From contig NC_019738.1 in assembly GCF_000317515.1 (NCBI RefSeq), positions 37,501-101,500 of the forward strand: a stretch of 64,000 nucleotides of DNA, in the 5' to 3' direction. Of this stretch, positions 11,289-26,159 are shown in pieces. This stretch comes from Allocoleopsis franciscana PCC 7113 (lineage in GTDB: Bacteria; Cyanobacteriota; Cyanobacteriia; Cyanobacteriales; Coleofasciculaceae). Within the stretch, counting starts at the first letter, position 1; every line of letters starts with the position of its first letter. Made by a program: the position numbers and the translations under genes. The notes below the pieces were generated by a model that was not told the origin of the DNA, did not search any database, and saw nothing but the letters and a program-made list of their open reading frames with translations.

Positions 11289-12062
11289 TTAAGCAGCAGC
11301 GATCGCCTCCTGTCCATGTCTTCGCATCAGTTCCATGAGTTCATCCCGGTAGTCGTGGAATGTAGAGTGTCGCTTCACGGTATGGGTACGATGGGGCAGC
11401 TTGATCGAAATTTCCTTCCTTACTGTACCGGGACGAGTACCGAGAGCGTAGATGCGATTCGAGAGAAATACGGCTTCCTCTACGTCATGGGTGATCATAA
11501 AAATTGTAATATTGGTGCGCTGCCATAGGTCGAGCATGAACTCATGCATTGACTCTTTGGTGTGGATGTCTAATGCACCGAAGGGTTCATCCATCAACAG
11601 CACTTTGGGTTCCGAAGTGAGAGCACGAGCGATCGCCACTCGTTGCTTCATCCCACCCGATAACTCTTTCGGCAAGGATTTGGCAAACTCAGTCAACCCC
11701 ACCACACTCAGGTAGTAGCTAGCTTGTTCGCGCCGTTGTTTTTTGGGTACGCCTTGAAGCTTCAGTCCAAACTCAGCATTTTCCTGTACAGTCATCCAAG
11801 GATAGAGGGTGTAGTGCTGAAACACCATTCCCCGATCCGGCCCTGGCCCAGTGACGCACTGACCATCAATGCTGACTTCCCCCAAAGTGGGAGTATCGAG
11901 TCCAGCAATCTGCCGCAGTAAGGTAGATTTACCCGATCCCGATGCACCCACCGCGCAGATAAATTCACCCTGCTCAATTGTCATATTAATGTCTTTGAGG
12001 ACAACTAACGCTCCATTTTTTGTATTGAAGTGCTTATGTAAATGGGTAATTTGCAGATACAT
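11289..12062 (-). CDS. ABC transporter ATPase, nitrate/sulfonate/taurine family; probable guanidine importer
   Basis: This is a 257-residue cytoplasmic ATPase. It has Walker A GASGSGKST (residues 39-47), a Q-loop (VFQHYTLYPW), the signature LSGGMKQR, Walker B VLLMDEPFGALD and the switch His in MITHDVEEA. It belongs with SsuB/TauB/NrtD. It is the last gene of a substrate-binding protein, permease and ATPase set on the minus strand, 104 bp after the permease. Because the set lies next to the guanidine hydrolase cluster, as I recall for Synechocystis sll1077-sll1082, guanidine uptake is the best guess for its role. Confidence 0.9.
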   Translation of the reverse strand: MYLQITHLHKHFNTKNGALVVLKDINMTIEQGEFICAVGASGSGKSTLLRQIAGLDTPTLGEVSIDGQCVTGPGPDRGMVFQHYTLYPWMTVQENAEFGLKLQGVPKKQRREQASYYLSVVGLTEFAKSLPKELSGGMKQRVAIARALTSEPKVLLMDEPFGALDIHTKESMHEFMLDLWQRTNITIFMITHDVEEAVFLSNRIYALGTRPGTVRKEISIKLPHRTHTVKRHSTFHDYRDELMELMRRHGQEAIAAA

Positions 12063-12166
12063 GGATTAAACCTCTAAATAGAGAATAGGTATTCGTTATC
12101 AATTCACCTAGAGTAGATGCTGTAAAATAGGTAACAATTTCAGGGATAAAGTCAGTAAAAAAAGGG

Positions 12167-13012
12167 TTAGCGCTTCTGGTTTGCCCACTTGCAGGAAACC
12201 CGTAGAAAGTATTGGAATAAAAGATCGAATGATAGTCCAATCACTCCGATGACAATTAACCCCACAAAAATTTCATCTGTTCTCAGAAATCGACCTGCCA
12301 CACTAATCCGACGCCCTAAACCTTCTGTTGCTGCAATGAGTTCTGAGACAATGACTAACTGCCAAGCAGCAGCTAGGTTGATTCGACAAGCATCAATAAT
12401 TCCCGGTAAGACATGAGGAAAAATCACCTGAAATAAAGTTTGTAGACGATTACCTCCTAACATGTAGGTTGATTCGATCAGGTCTTTAGGTACGAACTTC
12501 ACCGTATCCATGACCATTAAGGAGTTAAAGAAAAAGACTCCGATAAAGATAAGAGTAATTTTGGGTTCTTCTCCAATACCGAGGTAGAGGATGAGTAAGG
12601 GAATAAATGCAGGCGCAGGCATATAACGCATCAACCCGAAGATAGGTTCGAGCAATGCGCGAATACTAGCAAAACTGCCCATTAGCACGCCAACGGGGAT
12701 GGAAAAAAGAGCTGCAAACAGGAATCCAACACCAACCCGCCATAGACTCGCCACAGTATCCTTGAGGAGTTCGCGAGTACTCCACAGTCGCCCAAACGCT
12801 TCCAAAACTTTACCTGGTGAGGGCAAAAACTTAGGGTCTATGTTGCCAAATGTAGTCACCAACCACCACAGCAGTAAGGGAACACCAATGGAAGTAATTA
12901 CTAACACCGTGTTCAGGGGTTTGGGGATGTCTTCGGCAATTTGCCAGAAAACAGTAGGTTTTAGTGTTGTCGGTCGAATGAATGATCGAATCGATCCAGG
13001 ACTTTGATTCAT
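12167..13012 (-). CDS. ABC transporter permease, nitrate/sulfonate/taurine family
   Basis: This 281-residue inner-membrane protein has about six transmembrane segments and the BPD_transp_1 fold. The cytoplasmic coupling loop for the ATPase is visible around LIESTYMLGGNRLQTLFQVIFPHVLPGIIDACR, which contains the conserved EAA-type Gly (written here as positions about 185-217). The first transmembrane segment is at about 36-55. It presumably works with the adjacent ATPase and binding protein to import a small cationic nitrogen compound, inferred from the neighbouring gdmH cluster. The start ATG is 62 bp from the binding-protein stop. Confidence 0.88.
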   Translation of the reverse strand: MNQSPGSIRSFIRPTTLKPTVFWQIAEDIPKPLNTVLVITSIGVPLLLWWLVTTFGNIDPKFLPSPGKVLEAFGRLWSTRELLKDTVASLWRVGVGFLFAALFSIPVGVLMGSFASIRALLEPIFGLMRYMPAPAFIPLLILYLGIGEEPKITLIFIGVFFFNSLMVMDTVKFVPKDLIESTYMLGGNRLQTLFQVIFPHVLPGIIDACRINLAAAWQLVIVSELIAATEGLGRRISVAGRFLRTDEIFVGLIVIGVIGLSFDLLFQYFLRVSCKWANQKR

Positions 13013-13074
13013 GATTGAATTCCATCAACGGTAAAGAATCAGACTTATTAAAAACATTTCTCTGGTTCGCCGAT

Positions 13075-14124
13075 TTATGCTTGATTAAATTTCTTAGCGT
13101 ATGCCTGAATAAAGCGGTCATCAAATAAACGGCTGATGTCGGGTTGAGTTTTTGTTAGACCAACCTCTGTGAGAAACTTGCTCATTTCTTGGGCTGCAAA
13201 CTGTAAGGAAGTCATGGTATTGCCCGGTTGAAACGCTTTTAAATTTTCCTCTAATGTGAATAGTTGAGTGCCGTCAGCATACTCCTGATATTCGTTCACC
13301 GTGACACCCGCCCGTTTTGCCATAGTCTTGTAGGATTTGTCCCGATTTGTCTTCATATAGTCCAATGTGACAAACCAGGAATCAACAATGGCTTGTACCT
13401 GTTCTGGATGTTCGTTGACAAACTTGCGCGTGAATACCAAGTGATCGGAAATTGCGCCAGGAAAATCTTTGGAACTGAAGAGTTCCTTACTACCTGGACG
13501 CTTCAATGCCTGAGTGGTAAATGGGGCAAAGACTGCTACTGCATCCACTTGACCTCCCACAAATGCCGCTGCGGCTTTACCGGTTTCTAAAGGGATAAAT
13601 TGAATATCTTGTGGCGATATGCCCGCTTGTTTGAGTCCTAACAAGAGTAGAAAGTGATCCACAGTCCCTTCTTCTGCGGCAACTTTTTTCCCTTTCAAGT
13701 CGGCAACTGAGTTAATCCCCTCGCGGACAATCACCTTATCATTGCCTGTGGAGTTGTCATTGACCAGCACAATAACTTGGTCGGCACCCCCCGCTACGGA
13801 ATTAACCGTGTCGCCCAGGGTTTGGCTATTCGCATCAATCTGTCCGGCTGTGAGAGTACTGATAGATTCCAGATATCCATCAAACCACTTCAGGTCTACT
13901 TGAACATTATTGGCTTTAAATATGCCTTCGTCCTGAGCAATTTGCCACGGAAACCAACCAGGCCATGCACTAAAACCCAAACGAACGGCATCAACACCGG
14001 CTGAGGATACAGAATTGCTTTGATTGGTTGTTTTGATGTAGACCGCAGGATTGGTGCAACCTATCGTAAATGTCAATGTGACCAGGAAAAGAATAACGTA
14101 GGAGAAAAGTGAGCGGATTTTCAT
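13075..14124 (-). CDS. ABC transporter substrate-binding lipoprotein, NMT1/SsuA-like
   Basis: From the ATG at 14124 the protein has about 349 residues. It opens with a lipoprotein signal (hydrophobic VILFLVTLTF, lipobox TIG-Cys23), so it is anchored on the periplasmic face of the inner membrane. The mature domain is a type II periplasmic-binding fold of the nitrate/sulfonate/THI5 class (AVRLGFSAWPGWFPWQIAQD, LKGKKVAAEEGTVDHFLLL). Upstream in-frame codons to 14163 are less likely because they precede the charged MKIR signal start. It is the first gene of the transporter operon, with a GTA-N8-TAC box about 110 bp before the start. The substrate is inferred as guanidine from context only. Confidence 0.88.
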   Translation of the reverse strand: MKIRSLFSYVILFLVTLTFTIGCTNPAVYIKTTNQSNSVSSAGVDAVRLGFSAWPGWFPWQIAQDEGIFKANNVQVDLKWFDGYLESISTLTAGQIDANSQTLGDTVNSVAGGADQVIVLVNDNSTGNDKVIVREGINSVADLKGKKVAAEEGTVDHFLLLLGLKQAGISPQDIQFIPLETGKAAAAFVGGQVDAVAVFAPFTTQALKRPGSKELFSSKDFPGAISDHLVFTRKFVNEHPEQVQAIVDSWFVTLDYMKTNRDKSYKTMAKRAGVTVNEYQEYADGTQLFTLEENLKAFQPGNTMTSLQFAAQEMSKFLTEVGLTKTQPDISRLFDDRFIQAYAKKFNQA

Positions 14125-14232
14125 GGCACATATTTCTGAAGGTGATTGACAGCGAACGGTCAACGTTTCACAGCGATGATTTTTGCCAAGTGGTTACCTA
14201 TTGGATGTAGCCGATAGAGCGGTCGCTAATCC

Positions 14233-14246
14233 GTAACGTCTGTTAC
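14233..14246 (-). promoter_or_regulatory. NtcA-type box upstream of the ABC importer operon
   Basis: GTA-N8-TAC spans 14233-14246 with an A after the TAC on the plus strand. It lies 109 bp before the start codon of the substrate-binding protein. The best -10 candidate on the minus strand is TACATC, 23 bp after the box, which is weaker than consensus. A nitrogen-responsive promoter for a nitrogen-compound importer is plausible. Confidence 0.5.
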
Positions 14247-14394
14247 ATAGCGTTCCGGCTGAGGTGGAAACCTAAATCTATAACTTTTGGATACATAGCA
14301 TCTCGAACTTCTGGGTGATACTAAATGTTTTTAAGTTGTGCGATCTTACAAAAGTAAGCATAATTGCTCAACATTTAAGAAGCACAACCAAACA

Positions 14395-14934
14395 ATGCCA
14401 GATAAAACATACAGAAATAACATTCCAGAAATTGACCCAACTGAGATTGAAGATGAGCGGACTGCGATCGCAGATGAACATCGCTCGTTTCTGGAAAAGG
14501 TGATGGTTAAAAGCGGATTTGCCGATCTGTACGACGCCAGAGATTTTACGGAAGTGGTGTTTCGCGTCATGCGCGACTTAATGACAACAGAAGCGGCTGA
14601 TCGTGTCGAGGCAGAACTTCATACAGAGGTTCTACCGACAGAGGAGAAAGCACTCCAGATGGAAGTCGCCGAGCTCTGGAAAGATACAAATCCAATCGTG
14701 GGATTTTTGAGTCGGGTTCGTCCACCCTGGCAAGGCCCAGGCATCTTCAAAATTGATTCTGATCGCTTCCTGTTCCGGGTTGCAAATGAAAGCGGAATGC
14801 CGCGAACAGTTGAGCGAGAACAGGCGGTTTCAGCCGTGTTCTCCGCCACCAAAGACGAACTTTCTGAAGAGCGGATTCAGGAAATTGCTAGCTGGCTCCC
14901 TGATCATGTACGCAAACTTTGGGAAGAAGCTTAA
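14395..14934 (+). CDS. DUF2267 family protein
   Basis: This is a 179-residue, mostly helical soluble protein. The region FLEKVMVKSGFADLYDARDF followed by VFRVMRDLMTTEAADRVEAE fits DUF2267, whose members often carry two related helical repeats (here about 35-105 and 120-178). The function is unknown. The start at 14395 (ATG-CCA-GAT) is preferred over in-frame codons from 14338. The gene points against the guanidine genes on both sides and separates ghaB from the importer genes, so the cluster is two transcription units. Confidence 0.7.
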   Translation: MPDKTYRNNIPEIDPTEIEDERTAIADEHRSFLEKVMVKSGFADLYDARDFTEVVFRVMRDLMTTEAADRVEAELHTEVLPTEEKALQMEVAELWKDTNPIVGFLSRVRPPWQGPGIFKIDSDRFLFRVANESGMPRTVEREQAVSAVFSATKDELSEERIQEIASWLPDHVRKLWEEA

Positions 14935-14944
14935 ATAGAAATTG

Positions 14945-14988
14945 AAAAAGGTCAAGTCTGTTCGGGAGTAATTATTGCGAACAGACTT
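14945..14988 (-). terminator. Hairpin terminator of the gdmH-ghaA-ghaB unit
   Basis: AAGTCTGTTCG (14954-14964) pairs perfectly over 11 bp with CGAACAGACTT (14978-14988). Read on the minus strand it is followed after four bases by a T-run (14949-14945), so it should end the ghaB transcript. It can also serve the DUF2267 gene from the other side. Confidence 0.75.
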
Positions 14989-15040
14989 CGCACCTATTAG
15001 GATTAGCATCATCTTCACCACGGATACTGAGATTTCAGGG

Positions 15041-15748
15041 TCAATGAGTAACTGATAACTGTTGCTCTGAAAGAAATTCCTGTTCAATTTGAGAACATAT
15101 CCAATCAAACCAAGCCTCTAACCCTTCACCCGTCTTTGCAGAAACAGGAATAATGGTGACATCAGGATTCATTTGCCGCACATTGGCGACAATCCGATTC
15201 ACGTCAACATCCAGATGAGGGGCTAAGTCCATCTTGGTAATCAGCAAACAATCAGCTTCTTGAAACATCACCGGATATTTCAGGGGCTTATCTTCTCCTT
15301 CTGTTAAACTTAATAGAGCGACTTTGGCATGTTCACCTACTTCAAATTCAGCCGGACAAACCAAGTTGCCGACATTTTCCACCAGTACCAAATCAAATTC
15401 AGATGGGTTGTAGTGATGCTCTAGCTGATGGAGACCCCCTGCAACCATTTTGGAATCTAAGTGGCAGGAACGTCCGGTGTTGATGGCAATCACAGGAACA
15501 CCGTATTTACGCAGGCGGTCGGCGTCGAGTTCAGTGGTCATATCGCCTTCGATCACAGCAATCTTTACTTTATTACTGAGGGCGGCTAGCGTCTGTTCTA
15601 GGAGAACAGTTTTACCCGCACCGGGAGAACTCATGACATTGAAGCAAGTAATGCCCCACTCATCAAAATGGGCGCGATTGTGGTTGGCTCCTTCCTGGTT
15701 GGCATGGAGTAAATTAATTCCTAGGGCGGCGTCAAAGGTTTGGTGCAT
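15041..15748 (-). CDS. ghaB: HypB-type GTPase, nickel-insertion accessory protein of guanidine hydrolase
   Basis: This 235-residue HypB-type nickel chaperone GTPase has a P-loop SSPGAGKT at residues 40-47 and the metal-site residues Cys95-His96 (GRSCHLD) and Cys131 (LVCPAEF) of the G domain. TKMDL gives the guanine-base motif. The N-terminal Cys cluster of E. coli HypB is absent. No hydrogenase structural gene is in the window. Position directly after gdmH and ghaA argues for GhaB (HypB2), which with GhaA loads Ni into GdmH. It is 102 bp after ghaA, the third gene of the minus-strand unit. A role in hydrogenase maturation cannot be excluded. Confidence 0.88.
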
Positions 15749-15850
15749 AATTTAGTTTGGTAATTGGTAATTGTGAATTAAGGGCAGGTTTTGAATAAAA
15801 GTTATCTTCAACCCGTGAAAATTGATCACTAAACCCGCCCCTATCAAGCC

Positions 15851-16243
15851 TTATGCAAATCGGGCATCTTGTCCGCCCGAAACTATCGGATTGAGTTGTG
15901 CATATTCAACGCGATCGATTTTCAACTCTCGCCCAGAGCGAATGTCTTCCATCGGTGAACTACAATCTGGACAAGCATATTGAATGCCGATTTCGGGACG
16001 ATATTCCTGTTGGCAGCGATGACAAAAAGCAATTAATGGAGTTTCCTGAATTACCAGTTTTGCTCCATCTAAAAAAGTGTTTCGGGTTTGAACTTCAAAG
16101 GCAAATTGTAAACTCGCAGGTTCTACACAAGTGAACTGACCTACTGTGAGATAAATATGGGAAATTTTGGGGTGTTCCGGTTGTGCTTCCCACCAGTCCC
16201 GCACGGTTACAATTAGCGCTTTGGTCATATCAGTCTCATGCAT
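15851..16243 (-). CDS. ghaA: HypA-type nickel metallochaperone for guanidine hydrolase
   Basis: This 130-residue protein has the HypA layout. The N-terminal Met-His-Glu (Ni ligand His2) is present, and a zinc site is formed by Cys74-X2-Cys77 and Cys91-X2-Cys94 (CHRCQQEYRPEIGIQYACPDC region). It delivers Ni together with HypB/GhaB. The ATG is only 3 bp after the gdmH stop, so the two are cotranscribed and probably translationally coupled. This placement is what marks it as GhaA (HypA2) rather than a hydrogenase protein. The alternative is a general HypA. Confidence 0.9.
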   Translation of the reverse strand: MHETDMTKALIVTVRDWWEAQPEHPKISHIYLTVGQFTCVEPASLQFAFEVQTRNTFLDGAKLVIQETPLIAFCHRCQQEYRPEIGIQYACPDCSSPMEDIRSGRELKIDRVEYAQLNPIVSGGQDARFA

Positions 16244-16246
16244 TGT

Positions 16247-17452
16247 TTAAGTCCACGCTACAAGTTCGGGCTGGGATTCTGGATGAATGTAGGCGGGTTT
16301 CTCTTTGCGCGGCAACTGACCGGATAGAACCAAATGCGCCATCGTGTCGCAAATCACACGAGTTGCCATCAGAGATGTAATATCACTGATGTCATAAGGT
16401 GGGGAAACTTCCACGACTTCCAAACCACAAACAGGAGCTTTTTGCACAATTTTGCCTAACAAATGCAGGGCTTCGCGGGGCAAGAGTCCTCCGGGTTCAG
16501 GCCAGCCGGTGCCAGGGACAAAGCCTGCATCAATGCAGTCAATATCAAAGCTGATGTAGACACAATCGGTGCCATCTAATGCCCTTTCTAGAGCAAAATC
16601 TACGGCAGCATCTAAGCCCATTTCGGTAATGTCGGTCACGGTTAGGATATTACTATTTGCCCGTTCCCGGTAAAATTTAATGCCCTCGCGGGGGCATTGC
16701 CAACCGCCAATCCCCAATTGCACCAAGTTCTTTGCCGGTGCGTTTTTCATATTGGTGGCATGAAACCAAGGGCAGGTGTGCATCCGCTCATCTAAGTCGG
16801 TTTCTTGGGTATCGACGTGGCGATCGAAGTGAATAATGCCGACTTTCTTGTCGCCTAAGTGCCGACAAATGCCCCGAACAGTGGGGAACCCAATAGAATG
16901 ATCACCGCCTAGAATAATGGGGAATGCTCCAGAGCTAAAGATGTGAGCAATACCTTTAGAAATCTGGTCAAATGACTTTTCGTTGTTGGCGGGAATGGTG
17001 AAGATATCGCCCACATCACAAAGTTTGATTTGTTCGCGTAAATCAATTCCCAACTCAAAATTGTAGGGCGTATACAACGCAGAAATGCGGCGAATTCCTT
17101 GGGGACCAAAGCGAGTGCCAGGACGATAGGTAGTACCCGAATCGTGAGGAACACCCACAATCGCCACATCATATTCCCCAACCTTACGAACATCCTCTAC
17201 ATAGGGGGCTTTCATGAAGGTGTTAATCCCGGCATAGTGAGGAAGCTCACCGCGTGAAAAAGTGGGAATAGTGCGATCGCGAATACTCTCTGCCGCTTCC
17301 AAACCGTATTCCAGCCCCTTCGACACCTCCTGTTGCCAACCCGTCTGCGGCAATCGAGCCTCTAAATCCAGTGCCCGTTGCGCTTGAGTCGGATAATGTC
17401 CGTTCCCATCTGGACTTTGAAATAAGGGGTTTTCAGAATTATTTTCAGTCAT
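16247..17452 (-). CDS. gdmH: Ni-dependent guanidine hydrolase (ureohydrolase family, often annotated agmatinase)
   Basis: It hydrolyses guanidine to urea and ammonium in the cytoplasm. The arginase/agmatinase fold is clear, with metal motifs GGDHS (182-186), HFDRHVDTQ (208-216) and SFDIDCID (301-308). The first Asp-X-His motif is DRH, not the usual DAH of agmatinases. The 401-residue length, long N-terminal arm (about 75 residues before the core) and linked HypA/HypB genes match GdmH (Sll1077 of Synechocystis) from established work. The ATG at 17452 is chosen because AGGAG lies 5 nt upstream; a GTG at 17458 overlaps that site. A guanidine-I riboswitch in the leader settles the substrate better than homology does. 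Confidence 0.92.
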   Translation of the reverse strand: MTENNSENPLFQSPDGNGHYPTQAQRALDLEARLPQTGWQQEVSKGLEYGLEAAESIRDRTIPTFSRGELPHYAGINTFMKAPYVEDVRKVGEYDVAIVGVPHDSGTTYRPGTRFGPQGIRRISALYTPYNFELGIDLREQIKLCDVGDIFTIPANNEKSFDQISKGIAHIFSSGAFPIILGGDHSIGFPTVRGICRHLGDKKVGIIHFDRHVDTQETDLDERMHTCPWFHATNMKNAPAKNLVQLGIGGWQCPREGIKFYRERANSNILTVTDITEMGLDAAVDFALERALDGTDCVYISFDIDCIDAGFVPGTGWPEPGGLLPREALHLLGKIVQKAPVCGLEVVEVSPPYDISDITSLMATRVICDTMAHLVLSGQLPRKEKPAYIHPESQPELVAWT

Positions 17453-17526
17453 TGGCACTCCTGAGAAGTTGTCAAAACAATTGACATGAGCGAGTTGAAT
17501 CGAACAACATGAGGAATCAATGCAAC

Positions 17527-17579
17527 AAGCCCAGGAGAGGACACAATCAGTCTAATGAACTGATGTTTCTCCCGGGCTT
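17527..17579 (-). promoter_or_regulatory. Expression platform of the guanidine riboswitch
   Basis: The last conserved aptamer strand, AAGCCCGGGAGA (17579-17568 on the minus strand), is complementary to a downstream segment TCTCCTGGGCTT (17538-17527) over 12 positions with one G-U pair. A small hairpin (ATCAGT/ACTGAT) sits between them. The aptamer and this helix are mutually exclusive. Only a weak U-rich stretch (CTTGTTG) follows, so it may act as a poor terminator or a processing switch. Confidence 0.7.
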
Positions 17580-17697
17580 TTCTCCCGCCGTGTAACCGAT
17601 TCATCTAATACTTTAGAAAGGAGAGAGCTTAGATGAGCCAGCTTGCTTCTCTCGGACCAGCATTTGAATAATTCAAACCGGAACCCTAGAAGCTGTT
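17565..17697 (-). ncRNA. Guanidine-I (ykkC) riboswitch aptamer
   Basis: The minus-strand leader of gdmH contains, in order, the conserved blocks CTAGGGTTCCGG, CTGGTCCGAGAG, ACACGGCGGGA and AAAAGCCCGGGAGA. These are the hallmark segments of the ykkC class that binds guanidinium. A variable arm (about 17587-17640) lies between them. The aptamer ends about 110 nt before the gdmH start codon. PRPP and ppGpp variants of ykkC exist, but the full consensus and the gene downstream both point to guanidine. Confidence 0.93.
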
Positions 17698-17822
17698 AAT
17701 TTTTCCTTACACTCTGTAATTTTGAATGACTTCAAAACAGTCTAAGGTTTTCACCCAATCAGTAATTAGTTGAGAAAATTTTTAAACTTTACAGAGAATG
17801 ATCCTGAGTCTTTGCTACGGGA

Positions 17823-17865
17823 AGAATAGCAATGAATCTATGGAAAAAATGTAGTGAAAGATACA
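17823..17865 (-). promoter_or_regulatory. NtcA-activated promoter of gdmH-ghaA-ghaB
   Basis: On the minus strand TGTA-N8-TACA (17865-17850) is followed after exactly 22 bases by TATTCT (17828-17823). This reproduces the class II NtcA promoter GTA-N8-TAC-N22-TA-N3-T without deviation. The predicted start near 17816 gives a leader of about 360 nt that contains the riboswitch. The box partly overlaps the A-tract of the upstream gene's terminator. Confidence 0.7.
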
Positions 17866-17890
17866 AAAAAGATTGGCGCATCTGCCAACC
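17865..17890 (-). terminator. Intrinsic terminator of the TPR protein gene
   Basis: On the minus strand GGTTGGC (17890-17884) pairs with GCCAATC (17877-17871) with one mismatch around a 6-nt loop, and six T residues follow (17870-17865). It lies 140 bp after the stop of the TPR gene and just before the gdmH promoter, insulating the two units. Confidence 0.75.
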
Positions 17891-18029
17891 TTTGCCATAA
17901 ATATGAAATTTCCTTAACAAATTTATTCCACTCTTGGGGGGCTAAACTCCAAACACTTTTTACTGTCTAGCCTTGGAAGGCGTAAGGCGGCAGACATCTA
18001 GAGTGCCGATAACCCGCTTCCATCCCTGT

Positions 18030-25585: not shown

Positions 25586-25656
25586 GTGGGTGTGAGGAGA
25601 AAGGAAGAAAAAGCGCTTGGGGTCGAAACACGGCAAGACTCCTGAGCGCTTTTTCA
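25586..25656 (+). ncRNA. Candidate small RNA of about 70 nt
   Basis: The predicted transcript starts near 25586 and ends in a long intrinsic terminator. The terminator stem GAAAAAGCGCT/AGCGCTTTTTC (25607-25617 with 25645-25655) is continued inside by GGGGTC/GACTCC with one wobble. The single-stranded 5' part contains GGGTGTGAGGAG (25588-25599), complementary to the conserved CUCCUCACAC core of the cyanobacterial sRNA Yfr1. Promoter, length and terminator all fit an independent sRNA. The downstream stretch to 26159 shows only a weak 67-codon open frame that I do not accept. Confidence 0.6.
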
Positions 25657-26159
25657 GTTACAGAGAATATTAAGAATGAGAAGTGATCACTTAGAGCCAT
25701 CCGTAAGTATAATCAAAAATATTTTGCCTATGTAATGACCTAAAAAGCCTCTCTCGTAAGCAATCTACCATTTTTCTCAAAAAACAAAATGTCAATGAGA
25801 GAATTTTCCGTCCGGCTAAGACTTGAAGTTTTCATTTTGTGGAATAAAATCAAGCTGTTAGCAAAATATAGGCAGAAATTCTATTGGAAGCTCATCTGGG
25901 TAGAACTACTTAATTTTCCAACTCGATTATTAGGTTAAGAAATATAGATCTGTTGTTGGAAAGTGAATTGGCGTGAACGCAAGACTAGCCAAGGTATTGT
26001 ACTGGGACGACTGAGCGATAAACTGTATCGGGGTAAGGAAACTCTTCGATTGAAAGACTTATCGATTATTAATAAAATTTTTCCGTCAACTCGCCCCAAC
26101 AATAGGTCAATGCCTAATTTCTGTGCTTATCCTGTAAAAGGTAGACGAACACAGACCCG

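Follow-up and report, generated by a model that had tools for sequence, protein, structure and literature searches.

We identified, in a 64,000-nucleotide stretch of the Allocoleopsis franciscana PCC 7113 genome (contig NC_019738.1, positions 37,501 to 101,500; hereafter the window), a locus that in all likelihood represents a cyanobacterial guanidine-assimilation set, consisting of an importer and a hydrolase unit whose control layout has been rearranged. Read on the minus strand from position 17865 downward, it comprises a putative NtcA promoter, a guanidine-I aptamer, a hairpin, the genes gdmH, ghaA and ghaB, a second hairpin and an ATP-binding cassette (ABC) importer; between ghaB and the importer lies a DUF2267 gene on the plus strand. 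The gene families are clear from profile matches.

The hydrolase unit and its riboswitch

The first gene of the unit, gdmH (16247..17452, minus strand), encodes a guanidine hydrolase that is predicted to be nickel-dependent. Among solved structures, its product matches Synechocystis Sll1077 (7ESR/7OI1; compared through its PDB sequence) with 767.6 bits (phmmer E 3e-230) and the Nitrospira guanidinase 9FEK with 586.8 bits, whereas the next ureohydrolase scores just 172.9 bits. Threonine 97 and tryptophan 305 of Sll1077 set guanidine specificity (PMC11410670). They align with T108 and W317 of GdmH, and the pair is invariant in 97 of 97 aligned sequences (the window protein and 96 relatives). GdmH also carries the metal-site motifs GGDHS, HFDRHVDTQ and DIDCID. 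By its sequence and both specificity residues, the hydrolase is guanidine hydrolase GdmH and no agmatinase. Generic annotation models do name it agmatinase, but the idea of a true agmatinase, or some other ureohydrolase, under a guanidine riboswitch is extremely improbable: the characterised guanidinase is the best match by almost 600 bits, and the window protein and all 96 aligned relatives have the Thr and Trp specificity residues. These match scores rule out a true agmatinase. The sequence-only reading of this locus had called the ureohydrolase a guanidinase, and the alignment (768 bits for Sll1077 against 173 for the next) bears this out, with no agmatinase emerging as the best match.

On the same strand, 3 nt past gdmH, lies ghaA (15851..16243; TIGR00100, PF01155), which encodes a HypA-like nickel chaperone, followed by ghaB (15041..15748; TIGR00073, 312.7 bits), which encodes a HypB-like nickel GTPase. 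Both are contiguous with gdmH and score above the cut-offs of the HypA and HypB family models (TIGR00100 and TIGR00073). A second hypB is found elsewhere in the genome, apart from ghaB.

The guanidine-I riboswitch aptamer ahead of gdmH (17567..17700, minus strand) matches Rfam RF00442 over its full length (model positions 1-107); its covariance-model score of 78.7 bits (window E = 2.4e-12) exceeds the gathering score of 63, and it is the sole guanidine-I match in the 8-Mb genome. Its putative expression platform is a terminator-like hairpin, AAGCCCGGGAGA / UCUCCUGGGCUU (17527..17579, minus strand; fold -29.6 kcal/mol, z -3.6), the 5' arm of which is the 3' end of the aptamer. Both arms are kept in a same-genus genome, that of the congener L222 (L numbers label the sampled comparison loci), where the tail reads TTTTTG. 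Gene places, gene families and aptamer thus confirm the earlier description of gdmH, ghaA and ghaB behind a full guanidine-I riboswitch.

The gene set is widespread in cyanobacteria and ordinary in content, and the system is already known. We found gdmH in 102 of the 242 sampled genomes of the class, and the order riboswitch-gdmH-ghaA-ghaB-SBP-permease-ATPase (SBP, substrate-binding protein), with the importer downstream on the same strand, was intact or nearly so in about 60 of 100 gdmH loci, far above chance expectation. In Synechocystis sp. PCC 6803, sll1077-sll1082 has the same genes in the same order and the same riboswitch class ahead of gdmH (PMC8390497, PMC10094980); the correspondence that the sequence-only reading had drawn agrees with the gene order described in both papers. 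A glutamine-synthetase-like gene of about 453 amino acids lies between ghaA and ghaB in eight comparison loci (L052, L071, L074, L076, L077, L091, L124 and L130); the L074 copy is a type III glutamate-ammonia ligase (TIGR03105, 579 bits). The inserted gene may serve to assimilate the released ammonia or may act on a guanidine derivative. The window genome has only distant homologues of it.

Substrate of the importer

Downstream of the hydrolase unit and on the same strand, a nitrate/sulfonate-type ABC importer had been described, and we found its SsuA/TauA-type substrate-binding lipoprotein (13075..14124), which is likely guanidinium-binding as judged from the tree and pocket residues described below, together with a permease (12167..13012; PF00528, 79.3 bits) and an ATPase (11289..12062; PF00005, 117.6 bits). 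All genes lie where they had been placed, and only two starts probably need correction: that of the SBP to ATG 14124 (lipoprotein signal MKIRSLFSYVILFLVTLTFTIGC) rather than TTG 14163, and that of gdmH to ATG 17452, shortly past an AGGAG, rather than the GTG 17458 listed for the open reading frame.

The sequence-only reading had presented the importer's substrate as inferred, which it still is, and the case for guanidine is now strong, with three independent lines pointing the same way. The first comes from orthologues of this importer, which in the window sits within a gdmH set and elsewhere stands under its own guanidine riboswitch. In approximately 31 of 80 named cyanobacterial loci (28 by conserved core motif and three by covariance model), for example in Lyngbya, Microcoleus, Nostoc and Pseudanabaena, an importer-only unit lies directly behind its own guanidine-I riboswitch. 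Two loci, L155 and L172, have a hydrolase unit and an importer unit each with a guanidine-I riboswitch by core motif, and both riboswitches pass the covariance model in L155. A transporter that guanidine switches on its own, apart from the hydrolase, most likely carries guanidine. Secondly, relatives of the SBP are found in the urea/guanidine-carboxylase operons of Cupriavidus, Burkholderia, Acinetobacter and Enterococcus. A guanidine-I riboswitch stands directly ahead of the SBP in Cupriavidus, Burkholderia and an unannotated Paenibacillus record, and the Cupriavidus operon has a guanidine-II riboswitch as well. Thirdly, a tree built from 27 SBPs groups gdmH-linked with carboxylase-linked proteins in one starred set of 20 (SH-aLRT 95), with the sulfonate-, taurine- and histidine-linked SBPs outside it; several outgroup branches are long, so the tree gives support and no proof.

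The AlphaFold model of the SBP (pLDDT 85.7) has the TauA/SsuA fold (TauA Z 33.1, rmsd 2.4 over 287 residues). By sequence mapping, Glu106 and Asp205 of TauA, which hold the amine of taurine, correspond to the invariant D129 and D227, and Gln30, the residue holding the sulfonate, is placed opposite the invariant Trp54 by extending a weak alignment, without gaps, beyond its aligned region. Two additional acids, D105 and D123, are missing from three sulfonate or taurine comparators. On this weak alignment, the residues would fit the expected pattern of a pocket in which the anion half is replaced and the cation half kept.

Several observations weigh against guanidine as the substrate. The curated family that best fits the SBP is SsuA (TIGR01728, aliphatic sulfonate; 244.2 bits against a cut-off of 163.5), a broad subfamily model and label; its nearest solved relatives are sulfonate binders; and the mapping of residues onto TauA was made at about 22% identity, with Gln30/Trp54 beyond the aligned part. 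The SBP falls below the curated cut-off of TIGR03427, a putative urea ABC transporter SBP linked to urea carboxylase, to which it is nevertheless related (161.5 against 333.9 bits). The importer might belong to the set yet carry something other than guanidine, for instance a sulfonate, taurine, nitrate or some substituted guanidine (methylguanidine or agmatine), and owe its place here to chance or to some other nitrogen requirement; its position away from the riboswitch in the window's genus would suit this. We consider it quite unlikely in view of the riboswitches of the stand-alone orthologues, the carboxylase-linked relatives and the tree, which sets the SBP apart from sulfonate and taurine binders. 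On all of this evidence, substituted guanidines are possible substrates.

Variation in the importer and its slot was seen across the comparison loci. Related SBPs in L234, L245 and L246 lie in histidine-utilisation or hisD clusters, keep the acids D123, D129 and D227 but differ at D105 and W80, and may bind imidazole-type cations. The slot in gdmH operons is taken by either of two importer groups, with permeases either about 76% or more identical to that of the window, which belongs to the former group, or 51-69% identical as in other cyanobacterial operons (surveyed in L041, L050, L053, L057, L078, L093, L096, L100, L109, L110, L126, L132 and the window). Within one family, the window and L107 fall into different groups, which may reflect an exchange or differential loss of the importer block; both groups are present in Gloeocapsopsis LEGE 06123 (L151, L207). 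In five gdmH operons (L059, L079, L097, L098 and L117), a sodium/solute symporter (PF00474, 496-526 amino acids) located 69-410 nt past ghaB replaces the ABC importer and is a candidate alternative guanidine permease. The window genome has PF00474 members and no riboswitch-linked one, its sole guanidine-I riboswitch being that of the window. In L033, a different ABC importer with a distinct SBP, permease and ATPase, together with a glutamine-synthetase-like gene downstream of ghaB, takes the usual importer's place.

Probable transcription units and nitrogen control

The DUF2267 gene (14338..14934, plus strand; PF10025, 100.7 bits), whose product shares 52% identity with a paralogue encoded elsewhere in the genome, is also inserted at this place in the congener; identity to the window proteins is 99% for GdmH, 98% for the permease and 80% for the DUF2267 protein there. 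The insertion was absent from all other gdmH loci (100) and named importer loci (80) examined. Since the congener shares it, with an 80% identical protein, an assembly error is ruled out and the split predates both species.

Ahead of the insertion, a terminator-like hairpin with a U-tail follows ghaB (14945..14995, minus strand; -18.3 kcal/mol, z -3.7), and its core arms GTCTGTTCG/CGAACAGAC are kept in the congener. No riboswitch, second or degenerate, was detected ahead of the importer at a permissive threshold, nor in the congener at the gathering threshold. Because of the hairpin and the riboswitch-free importer, we regard the importer as probably a unit separate from gdmH-ghaA-ghaB, as had been proposed from the DUF2267 gene's orientation. 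The riboswitch would then probably cover the hydrolase unit alone, and it is fairly likely that the importer has been uncoupled from riboswitch control.

The other arrangement to consider is a single long riboswitch-controlled transcript that, as in Synechocystis, takes in the importer, here by running antisense through DUF2267. It would accord with the importer's strand and the conserved ancestral order, and the ghaB hairpin went unflagged in a loop-limited consensus scan for terminators; it nevertheless appears somewhat unlikely beside a stable, U-tailed hairpin with core arms kept in the congener, an NtcA-type box in the divergent spacer ahead of the importer, and the riboswitch leaders that importers apart from gdmH usually have elsewhere. 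Two points count against uncoupling: read-through past the ghaB terminator could still place the importer under the riboswitch, and no exact -10 element lies 20-24 nt from the NtcA-type box at the importer. This palindromic box, GTAACGTCTGTTAC (14233..14246), lies between DUF2267 and the importer, is an exact GTAN8TAC and is conserved in the congener; chance alone would place one in about 5% of spacers of this length. It is suggestive of an importer NtcA site and could equally serve DUF2267.

The putative NtcA-activated promoter of the hydrolase unit (17823..17864, minus strand) consists of the box GTATCTTTCACTAC (17864-17851), a spacing of 22 nt and the -10 element TATTCT (17828-17823), and fits the full consensus GTAN8TACN20-24TAN3T. 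In the congener the box is kept as GTAGCTTTCACTAC, with the -10 element TACTCT. Up to 210 bases upstream of the riboswitch core, GTAN8TAC occurs in 49 of 82 gdmH operons, against 2.5 expected from shuffles (maximum 7 operons in 200 sets), and in the region further upstream it occurs in 1 of 82. A box with a -10 at the right distance was observed in 16 gdmH operons (0.2 expected), and 13 of 28 stand-alone importers have a GTAN8TAC box (1.2 expected); these counts come from related sequences and are not independent, yet the excess is large. Ammonium lowers sll1077-1082 expression (PMC10094980), in agreement with joint control, and the hydrolase unit is probably governed by nitrogen status and guanidine together.

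Just upstream of the NtcA box, a sub-threshold cyano_het_sRNA match (17866-17913; 22.7 bits, gathering 35.7) overlaps a terminator-like hairpin and is probably the end of an upstream unit. Elsewhere in the window, a Cyano-1 small RNA was found at 25586-25658 (RF01701, 52.1 bits).

Proposed function and known systems

We propose that the SsuA/TauA-fold lipoprotein would catch guanidinium outside the cell and that the ABC permease and ATPase would pump it inward. From the sequence and from known ykkC riboswitches, free guanidine would bind the aptamer and keep its 3' end from the terminator hairpin, so that gdmH-ghaA-ghaB is transcribed. GhaA and GhaB would load nickel into GdmH, which would split guanidine into urea and ammonium, and a urease from elsewhere in the genome would complete the breakdown. 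Urease alpha is encoded in the same genome, so urea should be usable by the organism. No SMR-type guanidine exporter was found in the genome (PF00893 search). With its NtcA-dependent-looking promoter, the hydrolase unit would need nitrogen hunger plus guanidine, and the importer, separated in the window's genus by the DUF2267 gene and terminator, would probably answer to nitrogen status alone. We tentatively suggest that in this genus an NtcA-driven importer may scout for guanidine while NtcA and guanidine gate the hydrolase, that cyanobacterial operons may act as an AND gate, and that the guanidinium-binding SBP family may be common with the carboxylase pathway; this combined picture is somewhat doubtful.

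Compared with sll1077-sll1082, the window importer is without a riboswitch and set apart by the DUF2267 gene and the terminator. The carboxylase operons of proteobacteria and firmicutes (SBP-permease-ATPase-UAAP1/UAAP2-uca-atzF) share an ABC importer with a related SBP (33-39% identity) and, in several cases, control by guanidine-I or -II riboswitches, but they carboxylate guanidine at the expense of ATP whereas the window set uses a nickel hydrolase. The Nitrospira inopinata guanidinase operon (PMC11410670) has, as here, a guanidine-I riboswitch and a GdmH-type enzyme (9FEK, 587 bits), with an APC permease instead of an ABC importer and no nickel chaperones nearby. The sulfonate importers TauABC and SsuABC share the SBP fold, but Gln30 appears not to be conserved (on a weak alignment), the gene neighbours differ and the proteins are separate in the tree.

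The field is more settled than the sequence-only reading had supposed: several papers, reviews included, call the Synechocystis importer Sll1080-1082 a guanidine transporter. A PNAS paper from 2025 also deals with how cyanobacteria assimilate guanidine, and the rearranged control in one genus, the NtcA-plus-riboswitch pattern and the common SBP family may or may not already be contained in it.

In conclusion, the gene set extends a known nitrogen-scavenging system by one genome. What is gained concerns transport, so far a poorly defined step: the riboswitch-linked importer-only units, together with an SBP family that appears common to both known guanidine pathways, would make specificity for guanidine directly testable on a few purified proteins. 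The symporters found in the importer slot of five operons are further transporter candidates.

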